Part shown: piece after piece, positions 18,273 to 44,716 of the stretch
How the letters are laid out: each line of letters opens with the position of its first letter
Numbering within the stretch: position 1 is the first letter of the stretch
Virus record (IMG/VR): IMGVR_UViG_3300027467_000178
Location: 1-44,716 of that record
Length of the DNA stretch: 44,716 nucleotides
Strand: one strand, 5' to 3'
From: a virus
Position numbers and translations under genes: made by a program
The notes under the pieces: generated by a model
Databases searched by the model: none
What the model was told of the DNA's origin: nothing
The model's input: the letters and a program-made list of their open reading frames with translations, nothing else

Positions 18273-18342
18273 TGCGTTTTCGCTTGCGCTCAACGCACTT
18301 TGTTTTCTTTTAATTATATCGAAGTTGTGCGAGATGATATAT

Positions 18343-18357
18343 TTGCGCGAAGCGCAA
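18343..18357. repeat. Perfect 6-bp inverted repeat (TTGCGC/GCGCAA, 3-base loop)
   Basis: A tight GC hairpin in an AT-rich setting, with GAA or TTC as loop depending on strand. Related GCG-rich words (TTGCG, GCGCT) occur at 18272-18296, so the area may be a small cluster of hairpin repeats. Confidence 0.55.
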
Positions 18358-18727: not shown

Positions 18728-19162
18728 TTATTTTGCCTTTTTATGTTCTTCTAGACGCTGTCTAAGTATGTTTGATCCGCCAACTCTGACGTTTATAATG
18801 CCATTATAATAGTCATCTGTTTCTAAAACTCTGCGTTCAAACTGTTCTCTTGCTTCTAGATACGACATTTCTGCCTTGGATTTGCAAAGATAAAGTATTT
18901 CTCTTGTGAAATTTCCGGGACCTAATGCTTGGACGTCTGCGTTTAACCTATCAGATGATCCCCAGTAGTCGCGCCAATCGCTTTCAACTACAGACCTTCT
19001 TTTAAGTTTTTTGCCTTTGAGAGGTGGTTTCGTGCGTTTAAACTGTGCTAGTTTCTTGCCTATGTACTTTTGCCCGGTAGTTAGATTCGTGATGAGATAA
19101 ACAAAGCCAATATAGCCTTCTGGAATTTCTTCAACTATTTGATTTTGATACGTCCATTGCAC
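18728..19162 (-). CDS. GIY-YIG-type (Seg-like) putative nuclease
   Basis: In this 144-residue protein residues 18-37 (G-F-V-Y-L-I-T-N ... K-Y-I-G-K-K) match the GIY-YIG core, with G-F-V-Y and Y-I-G replacing the name motif. Further on are D-W-R-D-Y-W-G-S-S, E-A-R-E-Q-F-E and N-G-I-I-N-V-R-V-G-G, which give the usual Arg/Glu/Asn positions. Such small proteins are frequent in T4-like aquatic phages and may be homing endonucleases or repair or recombination accessories. The start is a GTG directly abutting the upstream stop (TGAGTG), so translation is coupled. It is in the gp46/gp47 operon rather than an intron, which argues for a resident role. Confidence 0.75.
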   Translation of the reverse strand: MQWTYQNQIVEEIPEGYIGFVYLITNLTTGQKYIGKKLAQFKRTKPPLKGKKLKRRSVVESDWRDYWGSSDRLNADVQALGPGNFTREILYLCKSKAEMSYLEAREQFERRVLETDDYYNGIINVRVGGSNILRQRLEEHKKAK

Positions 19163-19393
19163 TCACTTAGTTAGCTTGGGGGGTCTGCCTAATACGCCTT
19201 TTCTGGCTTTTTTTCGTGCCTGTCGTTTTTCTTGTATTTCTACTCGCCTTTTACTTGCTTCGTTTCTAATTTCTGATAGCCAATACCGTGCCTTAATGCC
19301 TGCTTCGTCTGAGCCTTTGTATTCAAAGCGATCCTGATATTTGAAATATTGCTGAAACGCTTCTATCATCTTATCATGACTGTCTGTTGCCAT
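19163..19393 (-). CDS. Small basic protein with AT-hook-like C-terminus
   Basis: This 76-residue protein has a helical N-terminal part with aromatic residues (F-Q-Q-Y-F-K-Y-Q-D-R-F-E-Y) and a central W-L-S-E-I-R-N-E-A segment. It ends in a strongly basic tail whose G-R-P-P-K motif resembles an AT-hook, which binds the minor groove of AT-rich DNA. Its ATG overlaps the gp46 stop by one base (TAATG). I recall similar small genes next to gp46 in aquatic T4-like phages. A DNA-binding accessory to recombination is plausible but unproven. Confidence 0.65.
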   Translation of the reverse strand: MATDSHDKMIEAFQQYFKYQDRFEYKGSDEAGIKARYWLSEIRNEASKRRVEIQEKRQARKKARKGVLGRPPKLTK

Positions 19394-21171
19394 TAGTTCA
19401 TAATCTCAATATCTGTAGAGTATGAAGTAAATCCATTCTCTTTAATAACTTTTAATACGTGATTTACACGACTGGTTAGATCGTCTCTGTGCGAAATCAA
19501 GAATACATTCTTGTCACGCTCTCGAGTCATACGCTTTAGAACAGCAATACTTGACTCCACACCAGACGCATCCATACCAGAGTCTACTAACTCGTCAATA
19601 AACAACAAGTTAATACTTTGATATAAGTTTTCCCACACATCTCGGAACGCCCACGATAATGACAGGATTAATCTGTTACGTTCACCTCGTGATAAGTTAT
19701 CAAAGTCGAGGTCTTGACCTAATTGAGTGATGATAACTGATAAATCATTTTGGAATTCAACAGTATGCGGTAATCCAATCTTATCAAGATAGTAGGTTAA
19801 GCGTTGATTTAAGAAAGCTAGGTTCTGATCGATGATGCGTTTACGAACAAAACTGTCTTTGTTAGTTAACAGTTTATGTAAGAACTCTTGATGATCTTTA
19901 ATTTTTACTAGTTCGTTGACAGCATCCCAGTTAATTTCCTGAACTGCGGTATTCTTAAGTTCTAATATTTGTTCGTCGTAGGGATTTTCTTCAGCATCTT
20001 TGATTGTAACGTCGCGCTCTAATCCATCTAAAGTATTTTTATGATTAAGAGCTTGTTCTAAACTGTCATAGGTAACAGTTGGACAATCACCTTGCTCACC
20101 TAAAAGCGACATAGCTTCGTTAAGTGTCGCCAGTTCTTCAAGATGTTCGTTAATAGCACCCTTGCTTTCTTCAACCTGCTGAGCTTTAGCACCTAACATT
20201 TCATCGTGTTTACTGTCGTGTACTTCTTGTCCACAAGCGTGACACTTATGATCAGCTAGACTTACTAATTCTTTTTCTAATTTAGATAATACTTTCTGTT
20301 CTTTTTCTAATGCTGCTGTTTGTTTTGCGATTAAAGAAGTAAGATTGTCTCGTTCTTTTTTAGTTTTAGTCCATTCGATTAAAGAACGCTGATTAGCTAT
20401 CTCTTCTTCAATGTCAATTTGCATCAAGCGATCAATACTCTTGAGCAAATTTTCCATAGCAGTTTCTTTATTGTCTGCCCATAGCTTTTGTTTACGCTCT
20501 AGAGATTCAATACTCTGCTGAATGCGCTCGTTGCTGGCTTTGATAGTTTCGATTCTAGTATTTTCTGTAGCAATAGCATCTTTAGATGCTTTGATAGCTT
20601 CTTTAAGTGCTTCTGCTTTTTCAGAAAGTATAGTAATACCCAACAACTGTTCAATGATAGCACGTTGATCGGCAGCTTTCATTGATAAGAAAGGTTCTGT
20701 ATAAGTGTTTAGAGCAACAAGATGTTTAAACATTTCGTGACTCATACCAAATACTTCTTCAATTGCTTTTTGAGTTTCCCGGCTATCGCCTTGACTTTCG
20801 TCTAAATCCTTAAGTTCTTGTTCTTGACCGTTAATACTAAACTTTAATAGATTAGGTTTGCGTCCACGTTCAATGTGGAATTCCTGCCCATCTTTGTCAA
20901 AAGTAACAGTAACTAACATTCCTTTACTGTTAATTTTGTTAATCAAGTTATCACGCTTGATATTAGTTAGGGCTTGACCGTAGATAGCATAGCTTAGTCC
21001 ATTGATGATTGTTGTTTTGCCCGTACCGTTGCGAGCCCCAGAATCATCACCTCCTAGATCTAGATTTTCACCAAGTACTAAGGTTAACTGTCCGCGGTCA
21101 AAGTCGATGGCTTGGGTTTGATTACCCACGCTCATAAAATTCTTGACTGTTAAATTTTTAATTTTAATCAT
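19393..21171 (-). CDS. 46: Recombination endonuclease subunit (gp46, SbcC/Rad50-like)
   Basis: This 592-residue SMC-type ATPase partners gp47 to resect DNA ends for recombination-dependent replication and host DNA breakdown. Motifs in order: Walker A G-A-R-N-G-T-G-K-T (45-53); coiled coils on both sides of a zinc hook C-H-A-C (about 309-312); ABC signature L-S-R-G-E-R (about 492); Walker B L-L-F-I-D-E-L-V-D-S-G-M-D (about 517-529); and a late His in the switch (I-S-H-R-D-D). Length is close to T4 gp46 (560). Its ATG overlaps the gp47 stop (ATGA). Confidence 0.97.
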   Translation of the reverse strand: MIKIKNLTVKNFMSVGNQTQAIDFDRGQLTLVLGENLDLGGDDSGARNGTGKTTIINGLSYAIYGQALTNIKRDNLINKINSKGMLVTVTFDKDGQEFHIERGRKPNLLKFSINGQEQELKDLDESQGDSRETQKAIEEVFGMSHEMFKHLVALNTYTEPFLSMKAADQRAIIEQLLGITILSEKAEALKEAIKASKDAIATENTRIETIKASNERIQQSIESLERKQKLWADNKETAMENLLKSIDRLMQIDIEEEIANQRSLIEWTKTKKERDNLTSLIAKQTAALEKEQKVLSKLEKELVSLADHKCHACGQEVHDSKHDEMLGAKAQQVEESKGAINEHLEELATLNEAMSLLGEQGDCPTVTYDSLEQALNHKNTLDGLERDVTIKDAEENPYDEQILELKNTAVQEINWDAVNELVKIKDHQEFLHKLLTNKDSFVRKRIIDQNLAFLNQRLTYYLDKIGLPHTVEFQNDLSVIITQLGQDLDFDNLSRGERNRLILSLSWAFRDVWENLYQSINLLFIDELVDSGMDASGVESSIAVLKRMTRERDKNVFLISHRDDLTSRVNHVLKVIKENGFTSYSTDIEIMN

Positions 21172-28621: not shown

Positions 28622-29059
28622 ATGGGAACAAAAATTTATAATCAAAAAACAGTTGCAACATCAAATGCACAAGTTACTACTAATTACGGAACTTTTACCT
28701 ATAGGGGATTTAGTTCTTCAAACGGAGCAAAAAATTATAAACTTTATGACATTGATCTAGTTAAACAAGATCTAATAAATCATTTTTATATCCGCAAAGG
28801 AGAAAAATTAGAAAACCCAGAGTTTGGTACAGTCATCTGGGATATGTTATTTGAGCAGTTCACTGAAGAAGTTAAAAAAATTATTGCAAAAGACGTCGAA
28901 GATATTATCAATTACGATCCTAGAATAGCAGTTAATGAGATTCAAATCGATACTACAGATCAAGGAATAAGAATTCAAGCAGATATCGTTTACGTTCCAT
29001 TTAATATTAGTGAGCGTATGACGTTTAATTTTGATAAAAACAATTCTATCATAGTATAA
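28622..29059 (+). CDS. 25: Baseplate wedge subunit (gp25)
   Basis: In this 145-residue protein the gp25-like fold is shown by D-L-V-K-Q-D-L-I-N-H-F-Y-I-R-K-G-E-K-L, then N-P-E-F-G-T-V-I-W-D-M-L-F-E-Q and I-I-N-Y-D-P-R-I. The E-K-L ... N-P-E-F-G core is the region that nucleates sheath and wedge contacts in contractile systems. Length is near T4 gp25 (132). Two bases separate it from gp5. It is followed by a late-type box (29080-29087) before gp6. Confidence 0.95.
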   Translation: MGTKIYNQKTVATSNAQVTTNYGTFTYRGFSSSNGAKNYKLYDIDLVKQDLINHFYIRKGEKLENPEFGTVIWDMLFEQFTEEVKKIIAKDVEDIINYDPRIAVNEIQIDTTDQGIRIQADIVYVPFNISERMTFNFDKNNSIIV

Positions 29060-29105: not shown

Positions 29106-32100
29106 ATGACTACTACAAGCAGACAAAATAATTTAATTCTAAACCAAGACTGGACTAGAATATATCAGACATTTAAAAATGCGGATTTCAAATCTTACGA
29201 CTTTGAAAATCTACGCCGCGTTATCATCACGTATCTGCGTGAAAACTACCCAGAAGATTTTAACGATTATATCGAATCTAGCGAATATATGGCGCTTATT
29301 GACGCTATTGCATTCTTAGGTCAAAGCCTATCCTTCCGCATTGATCTTGCTAGCCGTGAGAATTTTATTGAACTTGCGGAAACAAAAGAAAGCGTGTTAA
29401 GGATTGCTCGTATGCTTTCCTATAACGCTAAAAGAAATATAGCTGCTAGCGGTCTGTTAAAATTTACATCAGTGACTACTACAGATAGTATTGTTGACAG
29501 CAACGGAAAAAATCTTTCGCAACAGGTTATTTCTTGGAATGACCCAACAAACACTAACTGGTTAGAACAGTTTATTCTAGTTTTAAATTCTGCAATGGCA
29601 GATAACACAGAGTTTGGTCGAAGCCAAGGATCTGCTACAATTCAAGGAATTCCAACAGAACAGTATCGTTTTAGAACAACCACTGCTGACGTTCCTTTGT
29701 TTTCTTTTAGTAAATCTGTTGCTTCTAGAGGAATGCCTTTTGAGATAGTTTCTACAGCATTTGCTAACAGTGAAAATATCTACGAAGAACCACCAGTGCC
29801 GGGCAACCAGTTAGGTTTTGTTTATCGTAATGATAGCACTGGACCTGGTTCAGCAAATACTGGATTCTTTTTAATGTTTAAACAAGGCACTATGCAACTT
29901 GCTGATTTTAGCATAGATGCTCCTACTACTAATGAAAAAATTGCAGTTGATGCAAATAACATTAATAACAACGATGTTTGGTTATTTTCTTTAAATGCAG
30001 CCGGAGCCCAATTAGAAGAATGGACAAAAGTTTCAAGCCTTGTTGGAAATAATATTGCTTATAATAGTGTTAATCAGAACGTTAGAAATATCTATGCAGT
30101 CAACACAAAAGAAAATGATAACATTGATTTAGTGTTTGCTGACGGAGTCTATGGTAATTTGCCACAAGGCCCTTTTAGAGTTTATTATAGAACCAGCAAC
30201 GGATATAGATATACAATTTATCCAAACGATTTGCGAGGAATCAACATAAGCATTAATTATGTAAATGCTTCTGGCGTTGCTCATACTCTAACAATCGGGT
30301 TGGCACTACAGTCAACTATCACTAATTCTGCTGCTTCAGAAGATATCGATACAATTAGAACAAATGCTCCTGCTGTATATTATACACAGAATCGTATGAT
30401 TACCGCAGAAGATTATAATCTAGCACCGTTAACTAGTTCTCAAAATATTTTAAAAGTAAAATCTATTAATAGAACTTCTAGCGGAATATCTAGAAACTAC
30501 GATATCATCGATGCGTCTGGAAAATACAGTTCAGTTAATGTATTTGCTAATGACGGTTATATCTATAAAGAAGAAACAGAAGAAACTTTAACTTTTAAAT
30601 TTAATAATAGACTAGACATTATTAATTTTATAAGAGGTTACATCGAGCCTGTGTTTTCTAGTAACGAAGTATATAATTTTTATTTTACAAAATTTGATAA
30701 AATTTTATTCACAGACGATAAAACCGTTTGGGAAGCTGTCACCACAATAACACCAACTGGATACTTTAAAAATACAGTAGATTCATCTTTAACAAAAGTT
30801 GGTAGCTATTCTACTAACCTATTAAAATATTTTTATGTAGGATCTCTTATCAAGTTTGTACCAGAAGAAGGCAAAGCATTTAAAAACGGAGAAATGGTAG
30901 CAGCAGATCCTACAGATCCTTTACAGACTAATATGATATGGGCAGAGGCTGTTAAAATTACTGGAGATGGCACAAACACAGGAAGGGGTGCTTTGACTAA
31001 CGGATTGGGACCTATTGTATTAAACAAAACAGTTCCAACAGGAGCCATTGCTTCAAGAATTATTCCTAGATTTATAAACGATTTAAATGTTTCTTTAGAA
31101 AACGAAATAGTAAATCAAGCATATCAAAATTTAAATTTTGGCTTGAGATACGATGTTGAAACACTACAATGGTCGATTATAACATCATCTAATTTAAACT
31201 TAATTGATAATTTTACTCTAGGCAAATCTGGTGATATTTCAAACACCGGAGTCGACTCGTCATGGATTGTTGCTTTTGTAAAAGAGGCTGACAGCTATAC
31301 TGTTAGAGTAAGAAAGTTAAATTACATATTTGGAAGTTTACAACAAAATAGATTTTATTTTGATGCCAACGAAAAACGTTACAATGATCAAACAGGCAAT
31401 GTTGTCAAAGATACAGTTACAGTTTTAGGTATCAATACATCGAGTGATTTTATAACTGAATTAAAACAAGATGTTTCTTTTGAAATTAGTGATACTATAA
31501 AATTTGATGATGGATATGAAAGTACTTCAGAAATTAAATTATCATTCTATGATTCTAACAGTGATGGAATAATTGATAATCCTGAATCTTTTGAAACAAT
31601 TGTGGGCGACGATCAGTCTTTAAATTATTTGTTTTTTAAACAGTCTGTTGATCAGTACGGAACAGTTTACTACTCATTAATTGATAATTCAATTAACTCT
31701 GTGTTAGTTTTAGAAAAAGAATCAGTTGTTGATATTAACGATACTGCAACTTATCCAGACGGACAACTTATATATTTCTATGATGTTGACGAGGACGTGA
31801 TTAAACAAGTTAATAGAACAACAAATACATTAGATCTAGTTACATCCTACAAAGCAGTTTTAGGCCGTCGAAATTTAAAATTCCAGTATGTTCACAATGC
31901 TACAACTTATCGTAGAATTGATCCTTCATCGAGTAACATTATTGACACATATATGTTGGTAAGATCATATGACGAAGATTACAGAATGTATTTACAGGGC
32001 GGAATATCTACAGAACCAACTCCACCAGATACAGAAGTATTAAGAACTACGTTTGGCGGAACATTGTCTGCGATTAAATCTCTCAGCGACGAAATAGTTT

Positions 32101-32513
32101 ACCATTCAGCCAAATATAAAGTATTGTTTGGATCTAAAGCTGATCCAAAATTACAAGCAACATTTAAGGTAGTGAAAAACCCAAATAAAACTATTAACGA
32201 CAATGATTTAAAAGTGAGAGTAATAGGTGCAATTAACAATTTCTTTGATATTAACAATTGGGACTTTGGAGATAGATTTTATATGAGCGAATTGACAACT
32301 TATATTTTAAATTCCTGTGCTCCGGACCTAGCAAATATTGTTATTGTTCCAAAACAAACAAATCAGGTATTCGGAAGTCTTTTTGAGATTCAAAGTAGAT
32401 CGGACGAAATCTTAATTAGTGGTGCAACTGTTGATGATGTTGAAATAGTTTCGGCTATTACAGCAGCTGAATTGGGTGCAAGTATTACAACTATTGTTTC
32501 AACAACTTATTAA
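29106..32513 (+). CDS. 6: Baseplate wedge subunit (gp6)
   Basis: In this 1135-residue protein the conserved opening (N-L-I-L-N-Q-D-W-T-R-I-Y-Q-T-F-K-N-A-D-F, then Y-L-R-E-N-Y-P-E-D-F-N-D-Y-I-E-S-S-E-Y) and F-R-I-D-L-A-S-R-E-N-F (about 77-87) identify gp6, which forms the inner wedge ring of the baseplate. It is about 1.7 times longer than T4 gp6 (660), with extra beta-rich sequence in the middle (about 450-960). The C-terminus (about 1020-1135) again looks conserved (F-F-D-I-N-N-W-D-F-G-D-R-F-Y-M-S-E-L). It lies five bases before the giant wedge gene. Confidence 0.93.
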   Translation: MTTTSRQNNLILNQDWTRIYQTFKNADFKSYDFENLRRVIITYLRENYPEDFNDYIESSEYMALIDAIAFLGQSLSFRIDLASRENFIELAETKESVLRIARMLSYNAKRNIAASGLLKFTSVTTTDSIVDSNGKNLSQQVISWNDPTNTNWLEQFILVLNSAMADNTEFGRSQGSATIQGIPTEQYRFRTTTADVPLFSFSKSVASRGMPFEIVSTAFANSENIYEEPPVPGNQLGFVYRNDSTGPGSANTGFFLMFKQGTMQLADFSIDAPTTNEKIAVDANNINNNDVWLFSLNAAGAQLEEWTKVSSLVGNNIAYNSVNQNVRNIYAVNTKENDNIDLVFADGVYGNLPQGPFRVYYRTSNGYRYTIYPNDLRGINISINYVNASGVAHTLTIGLALQSTITNSAASEDIDTIRTNAPAVYYTQNRMITAEDYNLAPLTSSQNILKVKSINRTSSGISRNYDIIDASGKYSSVNVFANDGYIYKEETEETLTFKFNNRLDIINFIRGYIEPVFSSNEVYNFYFTKFDKILFTDDKTVWEAVTTITPTGYFKNTVDSSLTKVGSYSTNLLKYFYVGSLIKFVPEEGKAFKNGEMVAADPTDPLQTNMIWAEAVKITGDGTNTGRGALTNGLGPIVLNKTVPTGAIASRIIPRFINDLNVSLENEIVNQAYQNLNFGLRYDVETLQWSIITSSNLNLIDNFTLGKSGDISNTGVDSSWIVAFVKEADSYTVRVRKLNYIFGSLQQNRFYFDANEKRYNDQTGNVVKDTVTVLGINTSSDFITELKQDVSFEISDTIKFDDGYESTSEIKLSFYDSNSDGIIDNPESFETIVGDDQSLNYLFFKQSVDQYGTVYYSLIDNSINSVLVLEKESVVDINDTATYPDGQLIYFYDVDEDVIKQVNRTTNTLDLVTSYKAVLGRRNLKFQYVHNATTYRRIDPSSSNIIDTYMLVRSYDEDYRMYLQGGISTEPTPPDTEVLRTTFGGTLSAIKSLSDEIVYHSAKYKVLFGSKADPKLQATFKVVKNPNKTINDNDLKVRVIGAINNFFDINNWDFGDRFYMSELTTYILNSCAPDLANIVIVPKQTNQVFGSLFEIQSRSDEILISGATVDDVEIVSAITAAELGASITTIVSTTY

Positions 32514-32518: not shown

Positions 32519-35500
32519 ATGGCAGATAAATTTTATCCTAAGAGCAACTTACCAATTAGAAGAACAGTTGAGCTATTGCCTTCTGTTTTTCAAACATCTA
32601 GTAACGATAAGTTTTTATCAGGAGTATTAGATCCTTTAGTCCAGCCTGGCGTATTAGATAAGGTTGTTGGATATGTAGGAAGAAGATACGAAAAAACTTA
32701 CACTGGCACTGATGTATATGTAGATACAGACAATACTTTAAGAAGCAGATACCAATTAGAACCCGGTGTTGTTTATAAAAATCTTAATAAAATTGAAAAT
32801 TTTTATGACTACCTTGACTTTAAAAATCAGTTAAAGTTTTTTGGAAACATTGATGAGCGTGACGACAAGATAACAGAACAAGAACATTATACTTGGAATC
32901 CTCCTGTTGATTGGGATAAGTTTATTAATTACAGAGAATACTACTGGCAACCAAGCGGTCCGCCAAGTTTACCTATATACGGCCAAACCGCCAAGGTAAC
33001 AAGTACATATAAAGTTGTTTTAGGAACAACAGGAAACTCTTTTGTATTCACTCCTGATTCTTATACAAACAATCCTACAATTACTTTGTACAGGGGACAA
33101 ACATATAAGTTTAAAGTTAATGCTCCGGGAGAAGGATTTTCTATTAGAACAAACTATGATACCGGTTCATTAATTTTCCAACCTTATCACTCTTATAAAG
33201 CAGGAAGCCTTGCAGTTTATGATGGAAACCTATGGAAAGCTAAAAGAGATATTTCGCCAAGTGACGGCAGCTCTATTAGTATAGATAGTCAAGACTGGGA
33301 GTTTGTCGACCTAGCATCGTCGACTACTGCGTTAGAATATTCTAACGGTGTAACAAATAACGGAACTCAGAATGGTACTTTAACATTTGAAGTGCCCTAC
33401 GATGCTCCGGACACTTTATATTATCAAGGATTAATAACTCCAGATCGCTTTGGAAAATTTTTAATTGCCGACATAGAATCAAATTCTTTCATTAATATTA
33501 ATAAAGATATTATTGGAAAATCTCAATACACTTCTAGCAACGGAATAGAATTATCAAGTGGAATGATTGTCGAATTTAGAGGAAACGTAACTCCTGCTGA
33601 GTACTCTCATAATAATTGGTTAGTCGAAGGAGTAGGCGATGCTATTACACTAACAAGATTCGATAGTCTGGTCGTTCCTGTATTGACAACAGATGTACCG
33701 GAAGTTTTATTTGACAATGAAGGATTTGATACGCAACCGTTTGACGATGCGACCGCATATCCAACATATAAAGATTATACAACAATTCGAAGAGATAGTA
33801 GAGATTTAAATCCCTGGAGTCGATATAACAGATGGTTTCATAGATCTGTTTTAGAAAAATCATATTCCTTAAGAGGAGAAGATTTTCCAGCAACTGAATC
33901 TTTAAGAGCAAAAAGACCTATTATCGAATTTAAACCAAATCTACAGTTATATAACTTTGGTTCTGTAGCTAAACAAACAGTTGATTATTTAGATACAAAT
34001 ACTACTGATATTTTTAGTATCATAGAAGGTAGTTCTGGTTACAACATTGACGGTGAGTTTTTATTTGAAGGCGCAAGAGTTTTATTTGTTGCTGATACTG
34101 ATAGTCTTGCAAATAATAAAATTTATGAAGTACAATTTATAACACATAATAATCTACGCCAAATACATTTAAAAGAAGCCTTAGATAGCGAATCTGCTGT
34201 TGGTAGTTGTTTATTAATTAGACGCGGCAATAAAAATTCTGGCAAGATGTTCCATTTCACAGGAACAGCTTGGAAAGAAAGCCAGCAAAAAATTACAGTT
34301 AATCAAAGTCCAATGTTTGACGGGTTTGACAACAACGGAATAAGTTTTTCTAATGAAGATACATATCCGACTAATACGTTTGTTGGTACTGAAATTTTAA
34401 GTTATAAAGTTGGCTCTAGTGTTGTTGATAAAGAATTAGGATTTAGTATAAGTTATCTCAACATCAATAATATCGGAGACATACAATTTAATTGGTCTTG
34501 GGATTCTGCTAAATTTGAATATGTGATCGATAGAGTTACATATTCTAAAGATCTAGCCACCGGCTTCTATAAATTTAACAACATCAACGGAGATGATTAT
34601 CAAAACGGTTGGTTGCTAGCAGATACAAAATATTTTCAACCTATCATTGACAGTCAAATTGTAAAAGAATCTACAAACATTTTAACTTTTAATACTGTAA
34701 GATGGGAAAATCTCAAAGAAGATAACGAAATTAATTTTTATGTTAACGGTACAAAGTATCTTGGAGACTGGACACGAACTCTAGGAACTTTTACATTCTC
34801 AACAACATTTGAAATAAATGATGCAGTTTCTTTGAAATTAATTTCAGACATTGAACCAGACCAAGGATATTACGAAATTCCTGTAGGTCTTGAAAAGAAT
34901 CCATTTAACGATAATTTAATAACATTTACTCTTGGCCAAGCAATTGATCATTTAACAACTGCATTAGAGTTTAATATTGATATTACTGGCATAGTTCCAG
35001 GAAATTCTAATTTGCGTGATATATCTAATTTCCAAAAATTTGGAAAACGATTTTTAAAACATTCTGGTTTAACTCCAGTAGTGTTGATGTCGCTATGCGA
35101 TAAAACTCATAATATTGTTAAATCAATACAGTATTCTAAGCAGTCATATACAGAATTTAAAAATAATTTCTTATCAAGAGCATTAGAAATAGATTACAAT
35201 GATAATATTCCAGATTTTGTCGATGAGATTATAAACAGTTTAACAAAAACTAAAAATTCAACAAATCAATTTTCAGAGTCCGATATGATTGGTAGCGGAG
35301 CATTCACTTCAATAGTATATGAAGTTGATGATCCAGGAATAAAAACATTTTCTCTTAGCACGAAATTTGATTTATCTACTCCTAGCAGTAGAGCCGTTTA
35401 CGTTTATTTTAACGGAAACCAATTATTAAATTCTCAAGATTACACATTTAATTCTACTTTTGGTTTTGTACAGTTATCAGTTAATTTAACCGAAGGTGAT

Positions 35501-38500
35501 GTAATTGAAATTAGAGAATATGTTTCTACATCTTCGAACTATATTCCAGCAACTCCAACGTCAATGGGATTGTATAAAAAATATACTCCAATGAAATTTG
35601 TTGATGATACCTATGTAGAACCAAGAGAAGTTATTCAAGGTCACGACGGTAGCATTTCAGCAACATATGGCGATTTTAGAGATGATCTATTATTAGAATT
35701 AGAATATAGAATTTATAATAATATCAAACAAGAATACAATGAAGACATTTTTAATATAGACGATATTGTTGGCGGTTACTACGGTGTCGGATTATATAAA
35801 AAATCTCAATTGGACATTATAGTGTCTCAAGAATTTTTAAAATGGATTCAAAATACAAATATTAATTATACATTAAATTCTTATTTTGACAGTCAAAATT
35901 CTTTTACATATACCTACACAAATATGACAGATCCTACAAGGTCTGAAAATTTACCAGGGTATTGGAGAGGTGTGTATCAATATTTCTACGATACTGATCG
36001 ACCACATCGTTGTCCTTGGGAAATGTTGGGCTTTAGTGAAAAACCAACTTGGTGGGAAAGTGAATACGGCCCTGCACCTTATACTAGAGGAAATTTAATT
36101 CTTTGGGAAGATTTAGCAAACGGAATTATACGTCAAGGTACAAGAAAGGGCAGATACGCTCGATATACAAGGGATACATTACTATCTCATATTCCTGTAG
36201 ACGACGAAGGTCGTTTATTGAGCCCATTAGATTCTGGATTAGCTAGAGATTTTTCATTAATTAACAATCAAGGATCGTTCGTATTAGGCGATATAGCTCC
36301 TGTCGAATACGCATGGAGATCAAGTTCTGAATGGCCATTTGCTGTTGTAATAGCAATGGCATTAATGAGACCGTTTGAATTTATTTCGAATAATTTTAAC
36401 AAAGACGGAGTATCTTTAAACAACCTAGGACAAACAATTTATTCGTCTACTGGCAAATTTATTACAAAAGAAAATTATGGTCAATCAACTGACAATATAG
36501 TTGGTCTTGGAAAATATATTATCGATTATGTAAAATCAAAAGGTATCGATGAAACTACCTTATGGGATAAGATTAATAATATTGATGTACAAATATCGCA
36601 TAGAATGTCTGGATTTGTTGACCAGCAACAACAAAAATTTTTATTAGACTCTAAGAGTCCAGCAGCATCGTCATCTAGCGTATATGTTCCTCCAGAGAAC
36701 TACGATATTATTTTTAATGTAAGTTCTCCTATTGCTAGCTTGTCTTACAGCGGAGTAATTATAGAAAAAAATTCAAGCGGGTGGGTGTTAAAAGGCTATG
36801 ACGATATACAACCATATTTTAATTATTTCCAAGCACTTCCAAACCAACGAGATCCTATTATATCTGTTGGCGGCACAAGTGAGAATTTCTTAGACTGGCA
36901 AGCTAATAAATTATACTCTAATGGAATATTAGTGAGATATGCCAACGAATTTTATAGAGCACTTAAATCTCACACCAGCGGAGATGTATTTGACATTGAT
37001 CTATGGAAAAAAGTAGCAGGAATTCCAAAAACTGGAGCAGTAGAAGCAAGCGGTAGAAGAACATTTAACACACTGGTAGTTAAACGTCTAAGTTACGGAA
37101 CACAATTTACAACTATTCAACAGGTTGTTGATTTCCTATTGGGGTACGAAGCCTATCTCAAATCAGTAGGATTTATATTTGATAATTACGATCCTGAAAA
37201 TAAAGTATCGCAAGACTGGCTATCTGCTGCAAAAGAATTTATGTTCTGGACCAAGCACAGCTGGCAAGTCGGATCGTTGATCTCACTAAGCCCTGCAGCA
37301 CAAAAAGTTAACATAACAGTTCCTGTTGGCGTTGCTGATAGCGTATTAGAAGGATTTTACAATTATCAAGTTCTTAAAGGTGACGGTAAACCTCTGCAAC
37401 CAAAATATATTGATGTTAGCAGAAATTTTCAAAATATCACAGTTACTACCACAAATACCACTGACGGTATTTACTATCTAAAGTTATTTTATGTTCTGAA
37501 AGAACACGTAACTATTTTTGACGATAAAACAGTTTTTAACGATACTATCTATGACAAGACAACCGGTTACCGTCAAGGAAGAATAAAAGTACACGGATAT
37601 AGAACAACCGATTGGGACGGAGATTATACCAGCCCAGGATTCTTATTTGATAATGTTAATATACAACCTTGGGTACCATATACTGATTACAAGTTAGGCG
37701 ATATTGTTTCTTATAAATCTTACAATTGGACTAGCTTGATTAATCAGCCGGGCTCTCAAACATTTAATGATGCCTATTGGAGCAAGTTAGATACAACTCC
37801 AGAAAAACAGTTAGTTCCTAACTTCGATTACAAAATTAAAGGGTTCTCTGATTATTTTGAAGTAACGTCAGACGGCCTAGACAAGAGTCACAGAGATTTA
37901 GCTCGTCATACAATAGGATATCAAACTAGAAATTATCTACAGAATCTTTCAGAAGATCCAGTTACACAATTTCAAATATATCAAGGATTTGTTCGTGAAA
38001 AAGGAACAGCAAATTCGATTACAAAAATATTTGGAAAATTAAGTCGTTCAGAAACTGATAGTATTTCTCTCAACGAAGAATGGGCATTTTTAGTAGGAAA
38101 AGTCGGAGGCGTTGATCAGCTTACTGAAGTTGAAATACAAATTGAAAAAAATAAATTAGAAGTTAACCCTCAACAATTTTTAATAGAAACTACTAAGTCT
38201 GCTTTAACTACAGATCAAAAGTATAGAATAACTTCTTCTGATTTTACAATAGTACCAACCCCATTTAATGTTAATATATCACCCACTGCTGATTTATCTT
38301 GCCCTTATACCGCAGGATATATTACTTCGACTACTATTGATCATTCTATTAAGACAAGAGAAGATTTATTAACTTTAGATATAAATTCTATAAAAGAAAA
38401 TGATCACATTTGGGTTACGTTTGAAAAAGATTCTTGGACAGTATTAAGAGTTAACGAATCTGCCACTCTTGAAATAACTGACGTCACTCGTCCATCGGAT

Positions 38501-41500
38501 ACAACAGTTGTTATTACATTTAATCGTCCGCACTCTATTCAAATCGACGAGTATGTGGGCTTTAGAAACATATTAAATTTAGTAGGCTTTTATAAAGTTT
38601 CTAATAAAACTACTGCAACAATCACTGTTAATGTATCGTCAACGATTCAAGATCCTGTAATTGATTACAGTACAATTACACGAGTTCAGTTAATAACTGA
38701 ATGCAGATTTGCTGATTATCAATCTATAGACAACCAACAAGCAGCGTTATTAAAAAATAAATCTAGATTATTTGTTGATTCTAATGATACAGGAAATTGG
38801 GAAGTTGTTGAAAAAAATAAACAGTATTCTCCTAAAACAATTTCTGACTACGGTGTAACTAATCCGCTATTTGCCGGATCGTCAGTTCTGTACGACAATA
38901 TTAATAAACAAATAATTTCAAGTATTCCAGGATCGGGAATAGTTGTAGTTTATGTTGAAACTGATACCGGCCTACAAATAAAACAAATATTGTCTCCTCC
39001 AGTTAACACATATAGTAATGCAGTTGGATCGTTTGGTAAATCAATGGCGTTGTCACCGGACGGAAGATTTTTAATTATTGGAACGCCTGAAGCCAGCGGA
39101 TTAAAAACAAATTACCAAGGACCTTGGGAGTCTCAGGTAAGATATCAAACAAACGATATTGTGCTTTATTCCGGACAAATCTGGAGAGCCAAGAATCCTA
39201 ACTATCTAGGTACTGACGGAAGTACAGTAGCAGCAGTTAACACTGATGATTGGGAAATTGCAACTAATATTCCAGTACTAACATCAGGAAGAGTTTCTGG
39301 TTTTTACAATCAAGGAATGATTGCAATATATGAATTTTCAAATGGAAGATACACAAATGCAAAAGCATTTGTAAGTCCTCGACCTGTTGAAAATGAAAAA
39401 TTTGGATCTAATGTAACTGTAAGTTATGACGGTACAAATTATTATATGGCAGTTAGTGCTGTAGGATCAGTAAACAGTTCCGGAAGAGTTTATTTGTTTA
39501 AAAACACAGGAACCGACTGGGAACATTTAGAAAATTCTCACTATAAAGGAATTTATAATCCTTCAACAATTTATCGTGAAGGCGATATTGTATGGCAACC
39601 TGCACAAGATCCAATTGTAGAAGAAGTCAAGGGCAACCTATGGCAGGCACTTGAAACACAACAAGGTGACGGCAGCACATTAACACTAGAATCATCTGGT
39701 TGGATAAAAGTTAGTGATGTTTCTACAAGCTGCTCTTTACCAACAAATGTGTCTATAGAAGACGACGGCTCAACAGTTGCAGCTGGAATAATTTCAGTGG
39801 ATCAACTTACAGAAATTATAAAACAAGATGAACAATTTGGTTATAGTTTAACAATGAGCCGAGACGGAAGTATATTAGTTGTTGGCGCTCCGTATGCCGA
39901 CGGTCAATATTTTTCTAACTACAAAGGATTGTGGAGAGCCGATGTAGAATATGCAGAAGGAGAAGTTGTCAAATATTCAGATATCTATTATCGATTAGGA
40001 GATGCGTCAGGAAACCCAGATTCTACTTACAGAAGTCAAGGAGAAGATCCGTCGTCCAGTGCCAATTGGCAAGAAGTAGGCGATAGTGCTGCTAATCCTT
40101 CAGGAAAAGTTTTTGTATACAAGAAAACTAGTTATGATTTATATCAGTTAATCCAGACACTAACATCTGCAAACATATCATCTTATTCAGATGTGAGCAT
40201 GGAAATAAATGTTGGAGATCAATTTGGATATTCTGTAGATGTTGACTCATCCGGTACTACATTGATTATTTCTAGCCCACGATCAGACATAAATTATCAA
40301 AATCAAGGATCAGTATATGTTCTTAATTTTGATTCCAATATTTCTGAATTTAAAGTAAAACAAAAATTAGAAAGTTATGAAATGTATCCAAGTGAATACT
40401 TTGGATACGGCGTTTCTATTAGCCCGGACGGATATAAAATAGCCATCGGTTCTAAAAACACTTATTCGCATTATCCTATAATATTTGATTCAATGAGCGG
40501 AACACTCTTTGATCAAGGAAGAACTAGTTTCTATGTTGACCAAGGATACACCGGCGGCGTTTATATATTTGATAAAAAAGACAACGAATTTTTCTTAACA
40601 GAAAAATTAGAATCTGTACTTGTTGAAAATGAAAGTTTTGGTTATAGTATTGATTGTGTTGGATCAAAAGTATTAGTAGGGTCTCCTTATTATAGAAAAG
40701 ATAATACAGGAGATTACATTGGTAATATAAGATTATTCAGCAAAGATTCTTCTGTTGATTCTTGGACTATTATATCTCAACAATCTCCTTTAGTTGACAT
40801 AAGAAAAATTAATAGTGTTGAGTTATACGACAATATTAAAAATGTTAAAATACAGGATATAGATTTTATAGATCCTGCTAAAGGTAAAATCCTTAATTTA
40901 GCAGAAGAAGAAATTAAATTTAAAACACCATACGACCCTGCGGTCTATACTGTAGGAACTGAAGACGTAGTAGTTGATAGTTCTATTAACTGGCTAGAAA
41001 AAAATGTTGGACAGCTATGGTGGAATGTAGGTAATGCAAAATGGATGTATTCTGAAATTGGAGACATTTCCTACAGACAAGGTAATTGGACACAACTAGT
41101 AACTGGCGCAAGTATTGATGTTTACGAATGGGTGGAAACTCCGTTGTTGCCTAGCGAGTGGGCTGCTTTAGCTGATACAAACGAAGGCCTAGCAGTTGGA
41201 ATTTCCGGCCAGCCATTATATCCTAATGATGATACCTATAGCACAAAACAATTTTATAATTCTATCAGTGGTCAAGTGAACAAGACTCTTTATTATTACT
41301 GGGTAAAGAATAAATCTACAGTTCCTTCTAATTTAAATTTTAGAAGAAAATCTTGCTCTGAAGTAGCTAGTTTGATATCAAACCCAGTAGGAACTGGACT
41401 ACCGTTTATAGCATTTGTTGATTCTGATAAATTTATAACCTATAATTTTGATTCTATTATTCAATCAGATACTGCATTGCTTAATATAAAATATAAGAAC

Positions 41501-44500
41501 GAATTAGGTATATCAATCCCAGTACATAAAGAATATCAATTAATGACTGAAGGTATTGCTAGCAGCTTACCAACACCTAAACTTGAAAATAAATGGATAG
41601 ACAGTTTAGTTGGTTTTGATATTATCGGTAATAGAGTTCCTGATATCAACATTCCGGCAAAACAAAAATACGGAATAGATTTTAGACCTCGTCAAAGTAT
41701 GTTTGTTAACAAAGATGCAGCATTAAAACTTGTTGTTAACAAAATAAATTCTGTATTGTTAAAACAACCGTTTGCAACTATTATTGATTTTACAAATTTA
41801 AACTTAAAAGATTCAGCCCCTGCTGAAATCTTAAATCTATACGATGTTCAAGTTGACACTGAAATAGATTTGCAAAATGTAGGTACCATAAGAACCAAAA
41901 AAGCTGTGCTGTCTGCAAATATTGTAAACGGTGAATTAGACACTATTGATATTATAGATCCTGGTTTCGGTTATAAAGTAGTTCCTAATGTTGTTATTAA
42001 TGGGGATGGCAAAGGTGCATCTGCAGAAGTAACTCTTGACAACCAAGGAAGAATTAGAACAGTAACAGTATTAACTAGAGGAAAAAAATACAGTACAATT
42101 AATGCGTCTGTTCGTTATTTCTCTGTATTAGTAAACTCTGATTCTACTATTAACAATTTCTGGAGTATATATTCTTGGGACGATGTAAGAAAAACTTTCT
42201 TTAGAACTCAATCACAAGCATACGATACTACAAGATATTGGAGTTATATTGATTGGTGGAAATCTGGATACAATAACAAATCTAGAATTACCAAAGAACT
42301 ATTAAGCATACACGACGAAGTAATTTATAAAATTTCCGTCGGCGACCTGATAAGAGTTAAAGAATATGGATCAGGTGGATGGGCAGTATTTGAAAAGGTC
42401 TCAGATACAGGCAGTACTTTCTTAGACAGATTTGAATTAATTTCGAGAGAAAACGGAACTATAAAATTAAGTGACTCATTATACGACGCTTCAATCTTTG
42501 GAATTGGATTTGATAGATCGCAGGCGTATGATGATACAAATTACGATATTAACACATCTTTAGAATTAAGAAATATTTTAAAAGCTGTTAAAGAAGATAT
42601 TTTCGTTGGCGATTTTAATATCGAATGGAACAATTTATTTTTTGCATCTATGAGATATGTGTTGTCTGAGCAACAATATGTTGACTGGATGTTTAAAACA
42701 AGTTTTGTAAATGCAACACACAACGTAGGAGCATTTAGTCAGCCAACTAACTATAAAAATGATAATTTATCAAGTTATCAAGAATATATTAACGAAGTAA
42801 AACCTTTTAGAACTACTGTTAGAGAGTATGTTAGCCAATACACAACTCCTGAAAAATATGATTTATCTGTAGCAGACTTTGATTTAGAACCAACGTTTTC
42901 TGTTAAAGATGGAAAAGTTATTCCGATCAAACTTGATAATGATTTATTAAATGTTTATCCTTGGAAGTGGTGGTCTGATAATAACGGATATTCGATTACA
43001 GATATACAAGTATACGATTCGGGAGAATTATACAAAACTCCACCTAAAGTATTAATTGAAGGATCTGGCACTGGCGCAACAGCACAGGCTTATATTTCTA
43101 ATGGTAAAGTATCCGGCATTGTAGTTCTTAATGCTGGCCAAGGATACTTGTCTGCTCCTACTGTTTCATTGGTTGGAGGAAATTCAGCCGGAGCTAGATC
43201 GGCCAAAGCAGTTGCAATCATTGGAAACAGTTTAATTAGATCACTTCATGTATCAGTTAAATTTGATAGGTTAACAACTTCTGGATTGTATACTAGTTTT
43301 TCACAATCTGAAAGATTTGTTGCAACAGGAACAACATCGGTGTTTAATTTATCTTACGCACCTTCCAGAGATAAAAATAAAATATCAGTTTATAAAAATA
43401 ATCAATTATTATTAAATTCTGATTACACAATTACATTATATTATTCAACAGTTCCTGGATTTAAGAGTCTACAAGGAAAATTAAATTTTGCAATAGCACC
43501 GTCTGCAGGAGATATTATAGTAGTAAACTACGATAAAAATATTGAATTGTTTGATGCTGTTAATAGAATTGAACAGAAGTATAATCCTAAGGCGGGAATG
43601 ATAGGAAAGGATCTAGGACAGTTAATGACAGGTATTGACTTTGGAGGTGTTCAAATCCAAGGTACTACCTTTGATGTTACTGGTGGATGGGACGCTCTGC
43701 CTTGGTTCACTGACAACTGGGATAGTGTTGAAGCAAATTCAGATTATTACCATGTCTGTGATGGAAGCACAACATATGTTACTTTACCGTATGTTCCTGC
43801 AAACGGTCAAATTATTAACATCTACATAAAAAATTCAGTAACAGGAGAAATTATTAGAATTGACGATCCTAACTATACAGATGCTTGGGATTCGTCGGTT
43901 GCAATTAATCCTAACGCACAAATGCCATCTTTTGTCGGCGACGGTAATACTTCAAATATTGAAATTGGAACGTATATTTCTACCAGTGCCGGAGACATTT
44001 TAATTTTCCGCCCAATTGAAAGTGACGGCTCTGTAACTATTACAGATGACAACTTACTAGATACAAAGGTTAGCGGAGGAACACTTTCTGCAATTGACGG
44101 AGCATATGTTACAGCCAATGGAGCAACGGTTGAAGAAATTATTATTAATGGTGGGTCGTTTATTAGCCCTGAACAGGTACCAGCACCAGAAGAAAATGTT
44201 CCCGGCCAAGTATTAGATAGCGTATCTATCAAAGTATACAATAATATAATTAATGGCTCTGCTCCGTTGCACACAAAATTAATTCGAAGCACTGGAGTTG
44301 ATACTAGTTTTAATATTGGTCAACCAGTGTTGCAAAATAGTTCAGTGATTGTTTATATTGATAAAATTAAACAAGTAATCAATATAGATTATACACTTGA
44401 TCTGATAAATCAGAAAGTTAATTTTGCATCAAGTCCACCAGCCGATTCCTTAGTTGAAATATTATCAATTGGATTGGGCGGTCTTGGAATTATCGACTAT

Positions 44501-44716
44501 CAAGAATTTATTGCTGACGGTAATACAAATTTATTTTTAACAAATGCAGATTACGATAATACTTCTAATGTTTATGTAACATTAAACGGTAGATTATTTG
44601 ATACAGGATTTAAAAATAGCACAGGGATAATTGATACAAACGGAAAAACTTTAGTTGAGTTTGGATTTAATCCCGAAGCCGGTGATACAATTAAGATTGT
44701 ATGTTTATCAGCAACA
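32519..44716 (+). CDS. Giant baseplate wedge protein (gp7 position), at least 4066 residues, runs off window
   Basis: The ATG lies five bases after gp6 and the frame stays open to the last base. I checked translated segments near 36.0, 38.0, 41.0 and 44.6 kb; all are in frame and free of stops. The opening is M-A-D-K-F-Y-P-K-S-N-L-P-I-R-R-T-V-E-L. Parts: carbohydrate-binding-like modules near residues 222-265, 1457-1499 and 1717-1758; a FG-GAP-type propeller with three more such modules at about 2165-2725; paired G-x-G-Y ... P-x-V-x-I repeats near 3144-3192 and 3498-3566; and beta-sandwich modules near 934-1003 and from 3599 to the end. Position after gp6 equals T4 gene 7 (1032 residues). Probably a host-contacting wedge protein; gp7 homology itself is not visible. 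Confidence 0.85.
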   Translation, partial: MADKFYPKSNLPIRRTVELLPSVFQTSSNDKFLSGVLDPLVQPGVLDKVVGYVGRRYEKTYTGTDVYVDTDNTLRSRYQLEPGVVYKNLNKIENFYDYLDFKNQLKFFGNIDERDDKITEQEHYTWNPPVDWDKFINYREYYWQPSGPPSLPIYGQTAKVTSTYKVVLGTTGNSFVFTPDSYTNNPTITLYRGQTYKFKVNAPGEGFSIRTNYDTGSLIFQPYHSYKAGSLAVYDGNLWKAKRDISPSDGSSISIDSQDWEFVDLASSTTALEYSNGVTNNGTQNGTLTFEVPYDAPDTLYYQGLITPDRFGKFLIADIESNSFININKDIIGKSQYTSSNGIELSSGMIVEFRGNVTPAEYSHNNWLVEGVGDAITLTRFDSLVVPVLTTDVPEVLFDNEGFDTQPFDDATAYPTYKDYTTIRRDSRDLNPWSRYNRWFHRSVLEKSYSLRGEDFPATESLRAKRPIIEFKPNLQLYNFGSVAKQTVDYLDTNTTDIFSIIEGSSGYNIDGEFLFEGARVLFVADTDSLANNKIYEVQFITHNNLRQIHLKEALDSESAVGSCLLIRRGNKNSGKMFHFTGTAWKESQQKITVNQSPMFDGFDNNGISFSNEDTYPTNTFVGTEILSYKVGSSVVDKELGFSISYLNINNIGDIQFNWSWDSAKFEYVIDRVTYSKDLATGFYKFNNINGDDYQNGWLLADTKYFQPIIDSQIVKESTNILTFNTVRWENLKEDNEINFYVNGTKYLGDWTRTLGTFTFSTTFEINDAVSLKLISDIEPDQGYYEIPVGLEKNPFNDNLITFTLGQAIDHLTTALEFNIDITGIVPGNSNLRDISNFQKFGKRFLKHSGLTPVVLMSLCDKTHNIVKSIQYSKQSYTEFKNNFLSRALEIDYNDNIPDFVDEIINSLTKTKNSTNQFSESDMIGSGAFTSIVYEVDDPGIKTFSLSTKFDLSTPSSRAVYVYFNGNQLLNSQDYTFNSTFGFVQLSVNLTEGDVIEIREYVSTSSNYIPATPTSMGLYKKYTPMKFVDDTYVEPREVIQGHDGSISATYGDFRDDLLLELEYRIYNNIKQEYNEDIFNIDDIVGGYYGVGLYKKSQLDIIVSQEFLKWIQNTNINYTLNSYFDSQNSFTYTYTNMTDPTRSENLPGYWRGVYQYFYDTDRPHRCPWEMLGFSEKPTWWESEYGPAPYTRGNLILWEDLANGIIRQGTRKGRYARYTRDTLLSHIPVDDEGRLLSPLDSGLARDFSLINNQGSFVLGDIAPVEYAWRSSSEWPFAVVIAMALMRPFEFISNNFNKDGVSLNNLGQTIYSSTGKFITKENYGQSTDNIVGLGKYIIDYVKSKGIDETTLWDKINNIDVQISHRMSGFVDQQQQKFLLDSKSPAASSSSVYVPPENYDIIFNVSSPIASLSYSGVIIEKNSSGWVLKGYDDIQPYFNYFQALPNQRDPIISVGGTSENFLDWQANKLYSNGILVRYANEFYRALKSHTSGDVFDIDLWKKVAGIPKTGAVEASGRRTFNTLVVKRLSYGTQFTTIQQVVDFLLGYEAYLKSVGFIFDNYDPENKVSQDWLSAAKEFMFWTKHSWQVGSLISLSPAAQKVNITVPVGVADSVLEGFYNYQVLKGDGKPLQPKYIDVSRNFQNITVTTTNTTDGIYYLKLFYVLKEHVTIFDDKTVFNDTIYDKTTGYRQGRIKVHGYRTTDWDGDYTSPGFLFDNVNIQPWVPYTDYKLGDIVSYKSYNWTSLINQPGSQTFNDAYWSKLDTTPEKQLVPNFDYKIKGFSDYFEVTSDGLDKSHRDLARHTIGYQTRNYLQNLSEDPVTQFQIYQGFVREKGTANSITKIFGKLSRSETDSISLNEEWAFLVGKVGGVDQLTEVEIQIEKNKLEVNPQQFLIETTKSALTTDQKYRITSSDFTIVPTPFNVNISPTADLSCPYTAGYITSTTIDHSIKTREDLLTLDINSIKENDHIWVTFEKDSWTVLRVNESATLEITDVTRPSDTTVVITFNRPHSIQIDEYVGFRNILNLVGFYKVSNKTTATITVNVSSTIQDPVIDYSTITRVQLITECRFADYQSIDNQQAALLKNKSRLFVDSNDTGNWEVVEKNKQYSPKTISDYGVTNPLFAGSSVLYDNINKQIISSIPGSGIVVVYVETDTGLQIKQILSPPVNTYSNAVGSFGKSMALSPDGRFLIIGTPEASGLKTNYQGPWESQVRYQTNDIVLYSGQIWRAKNPNYLGTDGSTVAAVNTDDWEIATNIPVLTSGRVSGFYNQGMIAIYEFSNGRYTNAKAFVSPRPVENEKFGSNVTVSYDGTNYYMAVSAVGSVNSSGRVYLFKNTGTDWEHLENSHYKGIYNPSTIYREGDIVWQPAQDPIVEEVKGNLWQALETQQGDGSTLTLESSGWIKVSDVSTSCSLPTNVSIEDDGSTVAAGIISVDQLTEIIKQDEQFGYSLTMSRDGSILVVGAPYADGQYFSNYKGLWRADVEYAEGEVVKYSDIYYRLGDASGNPDSTYRSQGEDPSSSANWQEVGDSAANPSGKVFVYKKTSYDLYQLIQTLTSANISSYSDVSMEINVGDQFGYSVDVDSSGTTLIISSPRSDINYQNQGSVYVLNFDSNISEFKVKQKLESYEMYPSEYFGYGVSISPDGYKIAIGSKNTYSHYPIIFDSMSGTLFDQGRTSFYVDQGYTGGVYIFDKKDNEFFLTEKLESVLVENESFGYSIDCVGSKVLVGSPYYRKDNTGDYIGNIRLFSKDSSVDSWTIISQQSPLVDIRKINSVELYDNIKNVKIQDIDFIDPAKGKILNLAEEEIKFKTPYDPAVYTVGTEDVVVDSSINWLEKNVGQLWWNVGNAKWMYSEIGDISYRQGNWTQLVTGASIDVYEWVETPLLPSEWAALADTNEGLAVGISGQPLYPNDDTYSTKQFYNSISGQVNKTLYYYWVKNKSTVPSNLNFRRKSCSEVASLISNPVGTGLPFIAFVDSDKFITYNFDSIIQSDTALLNIKYKNELGISIPVHKEYQLMTEGIASSLPTPKLENKWIDSLVGFDIIGNRVPDINIPAKQKYGIDFRPRQSMFVNKDAALKLVVNKINSVLLKQPFATIIDFTNLNLKDSAPAEILNLYDVQVDTEIDLQNVGTIRTKKAVLSANIVNGELDTIDIIDPGFGYKVVPNVVINGDGKGASAEVTLDNQGRIRTVTVLTRGKKYSTINASVRYFSVLVNSDSTINNFWSIYSWDDVRKTFFRTQSQAYDTTRYWSYIDWWKSGYNNKSRITKELLSIHDEVIYKISVGDLIRVKEYGSGGWAVFEKVSDTGSTFLDRFELISRENGTIKLSDSLYDASIFGIGFDRSQAYDDTNYDINTSLELRNILKAVKEDIFVGDFNIEWNNLFFASMRYVLSEQQYVDWMFKTSFVNATHNVGAFSQPTNYKNDNLSSYQEYINEVKPFRTTVREYVSQYTTPEKYDLSVADFDLEPTFSVKDGKVIPIKLDNDLLNVYPWKWWSDNNGYSITDIQVYDSGELYKTPPKVLIEGSGTGATAQAYISNGKVSGIVVLNAGQGYLSAPTVSLVGGNSAGARSAKAVAIIGNSLIRSLHVSVKFDRLTTSGLYTSFSQSERFVATGTTSVFNLSYAPSRDKNKISVYKNNQLLLNSDYTITLYYSTVPGFKSLQGKLNFAIAPSAGDIIVVNYDKNIELFDAVNRIEQKYNPKAGMIGKDLGQLMTGIDFGGVQIQGTTFDVTGGWDALPWFTDNWDSVEANSDYYHVCDGSTTYVTLPYVPANGQIINIYIKNSVTGEIIRIDDPNYTDAWDSSVAINPNAQMPSFVGDGNTSNIEIGTYISTSAGDILIFRPIESDGSVTITDDNLLDTKVSGGTLSAIDGAYVTANGATVEEIIINGGSFISPEQVPAPEENVPGQVLDSVSIKVYNNIINGSAPLHTKLIRSTGVDTSFNIGQPVLQNSSVIVYIDKIKQVINIDYTLDLINQKVNFASSPPADSLVEILSIGLGGLGIIDYQEFIADGNTNLFLTNADYDNTSNVYVTLNGRLFDTGFKNSTGIIDTNGKTLVEFGFNPEAGDTIKIVCLSAT
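33185..33312 (+). repeat. Carbohydrate-binding-like module 1 in the giant protein
   Basis: Residues about 222-265 read Y-K-A-G-S-L-A-V-Y-D-G-N-L-W-K-A, then D-G-S-S and finally D-W-E-F-V. This is the Y-x-x-G-x-x-V-x-Y-x-G-x-x-W/Y-x-A ... W pattern of CBM5/12-type chitin-binding domains. Related modules are at 36889-37016, 37671-37795, 39112-39262, 39541-39717 and 39919-40086. Confidence 0.5.
39028..40690 (+). repeat. FG-GAP-type beta-propeller region with interleaved binding modules
   Basis: Six F-G-x-S/G-[V/L/M]-x-[V/L/I]-S-x-D-G-like motifs, several followed by [V/I]-[G/S]-[A/S/T]-P. They start near residues 2172, 2294, 2439, 2568, 2627 and 2706. They resemble the blades of integrin-type propellers. 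Between the first four blades lie three modules with W/Y ... G-D-I-V-x-Y ... W-R/Q-A, matching the module at 33185. The interleaving is seen directly; the fold and ligand are inferred. Confidence 0.6.

Follow-up and report, generated by a model that had tools for sequence, protein, structure and literature searches.

The 44,716-base virus record analysed here over its whole length (the window) carries late genes of a contractile-tail phage, among them the gene of a giant virion protein in which FG-GAP-like motifs alternate with stretches resembling chitin-binding modules. What fold does this part of the protein adopt, and what could the interleaved modules do? A preliminary description had proposed that the modules sit in the same loop of successive blades of a β-propeller, giving a ring that displays several sugar-binding faces.

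The giant gene (Table 1) has an intact copy in a related viral contig (L006, 3611–17467), which encodes 4,618 amino acids. The profile of PHROG 10938 (virion structural protein) matched the giant protein over its core with 1063.5 bits, in four stretches. The first 3,000 residues matched 60 of 50,697 phage records, including PA5oct, Atu_ph07, RaK2 and GAP32, which encode homologous proteins (24.8–29.5% identity in the 40 listed of these 60 records). The giant gene directly follows a gp6-like gene, as in the gp6-gp7 order of T4 and the gp25-gp6-gp7 order of cyanophage S-SSM7, and its homologues are found downstream of the wedge genes in those opened records that annotate wedge genes. In the PA5oct record, the homologue comes directly after two wedge genes and bears the note 'ESI-MS/MS'. 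The giant protein is most likely a component of the baseplate wedge, an assignment based on gene order and on the mass spectrometry note of this distant homologue and not on detected homology to T4 gp7: profile comparisons against single gp7 sequences of T4 and cyanophages revealed no such relationship (hhalign probability 0.1–0.4%). Fold searches with residues 1–1195 named no gp7 in the rows shown, but these lists were filled by the cupredoxin domain; a sequence search of the whole giant protein against solved structures gave no match.

Several other features of these genomes were observed. A module of the CBM5/12 type lies inside the span of the cupredoxin-fold domain, as if the same plug-in habit recurred in a second fold of the giant protein. 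Near the end of the window, positions 44288–44470 (residues 3924–3984) bear a weak resemblance to the N-terminal domain of the T7 tail fibre (20.9 bits, cut-off 25.2). In L006, the giant gene is followed by protein-coding frames at 17472–18146 and 18150–20261; the second encodes a 703-residue protein with an apparent tail-collar domain, likely a short or collar-type tail fibre. Elsewhere in the window (15483–16445, minus strand), an Ala/Pro/Gln-rich protein contains tandem repeats of 42-base units with 97% matches.

Table 1. Features of the 44,716-base window; residues are numbered along the giant virion protein.
Feature	Coordinates	Strand	Basis or remark
gp25-like baseplate wedge subunit	28622..29059	+	PHROGs 261 and 43; upstream of the gp6-like gene
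gp6-like baseplate wedge subunit	29106..32513	+	PHROG 10646, E 7.2e-293; directly upstream of the giant gene
Giant virion protein gene	32519..44716	+	4,066 aa, open at window end; PHROG 10938 virion structural protein
Cupredoxin-fold domain, residues 159-323	32993..33487	+	VIA Z 11.5, rmsd 2.0, 96 aligned over model residues 159-322
CBM5/12-like module, residues 218-268	33170..33322	+	Inside span of cupredoxin-fold domain
Conserved core, residues 768-1767	34820..37819	+	Used for tree; two further CBM5/12-like modules at ~1460 and ~1717
Seven-bladed FG-GAP propeller domain, residues 2119-2755	38873..40783	+	FG-GAP_2, AlphaFold model, VIA
Blade 1, degenerate motif, residues 2123-2158	38885..38992	+	Four strands in model; before the stretch of the preliminary description
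Blade 2, with module 1 inserted in its b-c loop	39041..39373	+	Model
CBM5/12-like module 1, residues 2198-2250	39110..39268	+	b-c loop of blade 2
Blade 3	39401..39526	+	Model
CBM5/12-like module 2, residues 2341-2399	39539..39715	+	Blade 3 end / connection to blade 4
Blade 4, with module 3 inserted in its b-c loop	39845..40165	+	Model
CBM5/12-like module 3, residues 2467-2522	39917..40084	+	b-c loop of blade 4
Blade 5	40235..40372	+	Model
Blade 6, extra strands between b and c	40394..40609	+	Model
Blade 7	40646..40783	+	Model

Six strict FG-GAP motifs occur in the 4,066-residue frame (starts at 2172, 2295, 2440, 2569, 2628 and 2707), all of them inside the stretch singled out by the preliminary description and none elsewhere. 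The strict regular expression, composed after the sequence had been seen, matched shuffled residues 2161–2760 on average 0.0015 times and never more than once per shuffle (2,000 shuffles); a looser one recovered the same six sites and two elsewhere (shuffle mean 0.29, maximum 3). The six motifs previously reported were confirmed in this way, but as a blade count they are incomplete, a degenerate first blade preceding them. The profile search that had been suggested assigned the protein to Pfam FG-GAP_2 (PF14312; 60.7 bits against a cut-off of 23, in two stretches), and PF01839 remained below its cut-off in the giant protein (11.5 against 22.1). DxDxDG is the calcium-binding motif of integrin-type alpha propeller blades, and this exact motif is missing from the 4,066-residue frame. 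Lacking both DxDxDG and PF01839, the domain is described as working like an integrin-type propeller, not as a member of that class.

An AlphaFold2 model of residues 2061–2800, built on 35 sequences, reached a mean pLDDT of 78.0 and a pTM of 0.78, and its strands could be read as seven blades of four. Six blades were considered and rejected, since blade 1 has four strands in the model despite its lack of a strict motif; this count is also contradicted by a relative free of modules (L243), in which seven blades are discerned by eye. Structural comparison with VIA placed integrin alpha-L in the top row (Z 25.2, rmsd 3.1 Å, 357 aligned residues), tied with other integrins and with WD40 propellers (Z 24.8). 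Solved propellers were aligned over 276–368 residues at 2.2–3.4 Å; for the designed seven-bladed 7bie_A, the alignment takes in 276 of the 286 residues (2.2 Å). Foldseek gave a weaker signal than VIA for the whole model, with query-normalised TM-scores of at most 0.38 among the rows listed, as expected from the large inserts. The preliminary description had named the lack of a propeller as grounds for abandoning its proposal; the predicted structure contains one. A row of independent tandem domains could draw on the poorly predicted linker that follows module 2, between blades 3 and 4 (mean pLDDT 36 and 43, model residues 351–370). It is nevertheless very improbable, given the VIA alignments with solved propellers, nearly complete for 7bie_A, and a relative (L082) whose blades close where modules are missing. 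A propeller with an open ring was likewise dismissed as unlikely from the model and these alignments. Taken together, the predicted structure has a ring of seven four-stranded blades, as integrin-type alpha propellers do. Residues 2131–2760 (630 amino acids) are 100% identical in five other viral contigs, and cellular relatives were found at eight loci in bacterial genomes (23–27% identity).

The three CBM5/12-like stretches lie at the residues first proposed for them. Over the whole giant protein, CBM_5_12 (PF02839) scored 37.4 bits against a cut-off of 26.2, but no single stretch exceeded the cut-off alone (best 24.9 bits), and module 1 was the only one of the three propeller modules reported by this search (39125–39193). 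With a profile made from first modules only, modules 2 and 3 of this virus scored 26 and 18 bits, indicating that the three resemble one another. The placement directly after a blade motif is correct for modules 1 and 3 but not for module 2, which begins about 28 residues after the blade 3 motif, past the third and a short fourth strand. The predicted structure has three small β modules inserted into a seven-bladed propeller, six or seven blades having been anticipated in the preliminary description, but the loops are not equivalent, and the idea of one loop used by successive blades had to be given up: modules 1 and 3 split blades 2 and 4, which do not follow one another, and module 2 occupies the connection from blade 3 to blade 4. 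In a meander of four strands, one face carries the b-c and d-a connections, the opposite face the a-b and c-d connections. By this topology, all three modules are expected to project from the same face of the propeller. Integrins bind their ligands on the b-c/d-a face.

Are these modules made to bind sugars? Among solved structures, the module profile matched best a fibre protein of the contractile injection system of Anabaena, All3316 (E 7e-7), followed by the chitinase domains 2rts (E 2e-6) and 1ed7 (E 0.0016); deacetylases were matched as well, together with two phage spike or fibre proteins (8fqc and 9rkv) in which the modules are near the N-terminus (best stretches residues 29–55). All3316 is Cis13, described as bound to the baseplate by its N-terminal domain (PMC8894136). 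In an alignment of 101 modules from 35 proteins, the positions of the Tyr-Trp pair of 2rts were aromatic in four modules and the pair was missing in the other 97. The surface expected for several sugar-binding faces is therefore partly lacking, but 1ed7 is also without the pair in the same alignment, so the pair does not define the family and its absence is not decisive. Other positions were strongly kept, the last Trp in 101/101, a core Tyr in 100/101 and an aromatic first residue in 98/101. We consequently call the modules CBM5/12-like and do not claim chitin binding; from sequence, sugar binding is unproven.

These observations bear on two readings. We tentatively favour, as a best guess, that the propeller and its modules act as an accessory adhesin, a function to which the 2rts match points. 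A precedent is found in Bacillus phage Vp4, where the wedge protein Gp119 has CBM folds and is reported to decorate host cells, the Deep-Blue homologue without these folds failing to do so (PMC11406892). The folds of Gp119 differ, being of CBM16 and xylanase type, and no propeller is mentioned in that text (PMC11406892). Speaking against the adhesin are the missing aromatic pair, the best solved match falling in a baseplate-binding domain, and the neck fibre of A-1(L), whose distal carbohydrate-binding module is reported not to bind the host (PMC10966104). The serious second candidate, for which there is a real though smaller chance, is a docking platform whose modules are protein-protein joints for tail fibres or neighbouring baseplate subunits, the face being an internal assembly surface with no sugar role. 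The match to Cis13, the N-terminal modules of 8fqc and 9rkv and the lack of a 2rts-type pair all fit such joints.

The distribution of modules along the protein and their conservation also fit docking. At a loose threshold of 4 bits, 71 of 79 relatives had a module-like match near residue 1460 and 76 of 79 had one near residue 1717, both in the conserved core; near residue 225, the count was 52 of 76. Their frequency in the core fits a structural role, which weakens the adhesin reading. In 31 rows with three modules, mean identity was 0.51, 0.57 and 0.63 for modules 1, 2 and 3 and 0.54–0.69 for the blades. Of 15 segments, module 1 has the lowest conservation; modules 2 and 3 roughly match the blades, which speaks for joints and against the adhesin. 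Hypervariable receptor-binding modules as a general rule were not supported by the same figures.

Comparison with isolated phages indicated that the propeller fills a slot of variable length. Between the matched blocks, PA5oct has about 287 residues against about 828 in the giant protein and GAP32 about 222 against about 867; the corresponding lengths are about 1,480 in Atu_ph07 and 1,515 in Phosso. Unlike the giant protein, the five isolated homologues examined have other content in this slot (248–1,570 residues). No FG-GAP family of Pfam was detected in the giant proteins of PA5oct, Atu_ph07, SCTP-2 and GAP32, and FG-GAP_2 had no match in the giant gene when the whole records of five isolated phages, Phosso included, were searched. 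Likewise, a tblastn search of 50,697 phage records with residues 2131–2760 was without a match. Slots of other relatives did match phage records: that of L239 matched 15 of them through its downstream flank, and that of L226 matched 11 through parts of an inserted β-repeat region. Isolated phages do have the domain, since FG-GAP_2 is found outside the giant gene in the Atu_ph07 and Phosso records. In the variable slot, the propeller seems to be a filling specific to one clade. In Sinorhizobium phage Phosso (PV764938.1), the region from about 48,000 to 69,000 has frames of 3,702 and 3,182 residues rich in FG-GAP_2; the whole record has 42 matches, including a few in a pair of shorter frames around 92,000–94,000.

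Relatives were taken as the best 80 each of 281, 237 and 579 from three scans of viral contigs, and 118 distinct sequences with both slot flanks were counted. In these best-80 lists, slots with 0, 1, 2, 3 and 4 module matches numbered 6, 2, 23, 83 and 4, respectively. The six without a module are the five isolated phages (L009–L013), which have no propeller in the slot, and L243, a bare propeller with 95 bits for the propeller profile, 14 bits for FG-GAP_2, below its cut-off, and a motif legible by eye at the position of blade 1. Module 2 is missing in L074, L080 and L082. The last of these also lacks module 3; nine residues join both halves of its blade 4, and FG-GAP_2 gives 103.9 bits on the joined stretch. 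Used as a scan query, the L082 propeller retrieved no sequence other than L082 itself.

A tree was computed from 84 conserved cores, of which 79 belong to propeller-bearing proteins. Among these 79, the minimum numbers of changes were at least one for module 1, at least four for module 2 and at least three for module 3; the tree came from a quick search and has long outgroup branches, and module states in the two-module rows were partly assigned by eye. Judging from contig names, sample 3300027396 holds both the three-module L006 and L074, which lacks module 2, and sample 3300024298 both the three-module L004 and the bare L243. Repeated gain or loss of modules among relatives is supported by these sequences and by the model. 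The series from zero to four modules, the repeated changes and the variants within one sample all favour the adhesin. They count against docking, as a load-bearing joint should be harder to lose than modules 2 and 3, which change repeatedly while the propeller is kept; that differing variants seem to share samples, and that the five isolated homologues have no propeller in the slot, weigh in the same direction.

Loops of a propeller may also tolerate small folded domains that come and go with no role of their own. Such neutral, purely architectural insertion would accommodate the other inserts seen by eye in the same propeller: two in L080, one in the c-d loop of blade 3 in L090, and one with β repeats in the a-b loop of blade 3, on the opposite face, in L226. 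The module spanned by the cupredoxin domain would suit it too. We nevertheless regard it as unlikely, because fold-determining residues such as the last Trp are kept throughout and three module matches persist in 83 of the 118 slots. A fourth CBM-like module was observed in the slots of L226, L220, L224 and L255; in L226 it sits with the β repeats in blade 3, and a stretch of this slot resembles part of S-SSM7 gp7.

The closest known arrangements are the integrin I domains and the lectin-type insert of Vibrio cholerae sialidase. Integrins alpha-L, alpha-M and alpha-X share with the giant protein a seven-bladed FG-GAP-type propeller and a ligand-binding domain inserted between blades, the I domain being placed between blades 2 and 3 (PMC3192720, PMC12422189). 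The giant protein differs in having no DxDxDG, several small β modules in place of one vWA domain and different insertion points, with 18–20% identity over the aligned residues in the integrin VIA rows. In the sialidase, the lectin-type domain is described as interrupting the blades of a single propeller (PMC2716378); this protein is, unlike ours, an enzyme with a 'type 2' Asp-box propeller and a different module. β-Propellers are likewise present in phage host-recognition or virion proteins such as the phi11 receptor-binding protein Gp45, phiKZ gp131C, a seven-bladed propeller at the baseplate periphery (PMC4901313), and CBB_552, of Kelch type and present in the virion (PMC5259590). Gp45 has five blades and the CBB propellers are of Kelch type, and the passages cited on Gp45, gp131C and the CBB proteins do not mention inserted modules. 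The best Foldseek matches among the predicted viral structures of BFVD included giant-virus FG-GAP proteins and an 'FG-GAP repeat' protein of an uncultured Caudovirales phage, along with a 393-residue Atu_ph07 protein and a cyanophage S-TIM5 protein, with query-normalised TM-scores of at most 0.46 among the rows listed. Mosquito SGS1 is described as having propellers and a CBM on one shell, with no CBM inside a propeller in the passages concerned (PMC9935623), and the passages on MIJ3 say nothing about the giant protein (PMC6892783). In the open-access literature, no phage baseplate protein was found described as a propeller with inserted modules, in line with the preliminary description.

Taken together, the architecture, that is seven blades, the module positions and module gain and loss, is well supported by the sequences and the model. 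The accessory adhesin, our tentative choice, would work as follows. A giant protein, most likely part of the baseplate wedge, has a variable slot which, in one virus clade, would have been filled by a seven-bladed FG-GAP propeller. This propeller may serve as a rigid scaffold; small CBM5/12-like modules would have entered its b-c loops and the connection between blades 3 and 4, all on one face, in the way that the I domain entered integrin alpha subunits. From a place at the baseplate periphery, the module-bearing face would make accessory contacts with the host surface, probably with glycans, when the tail lands. Primary recognition would be left to fibre proteins encoded downstream, where a collar-type fibre (the 703-residue protein) is apparently encoded; loss or gain of a module would shift avidity or range and leave the propeller undisturbed. 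The want of a sequence link to gp7 and the low Foldseek TM-scores count against this scheme.

It is known that phage tails exchange fibre tips. Here, the exchangeable parts are apparently small domains in the propeller loops of a giant virion protein, and the many relatives found in nature show which sockets can take a module. This might, rather speculatively, be a phage counterpart of the integrin I-domain trick, in which the ligand face of a baseplate propeller offers sockets for interchangeable modules, contacts are retuned by gain or loss of whole modules rather than by point changes, and variants coexist. If the modules contact the host, they would form a second, modular attachment layer outside the tail fibres; if they are joints, they would reveal how the components of the baseplate are connected in large myoviruses. 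In both cases, variants with 0, 1, 2, 3 and 4 modules make the question of function directly testable.
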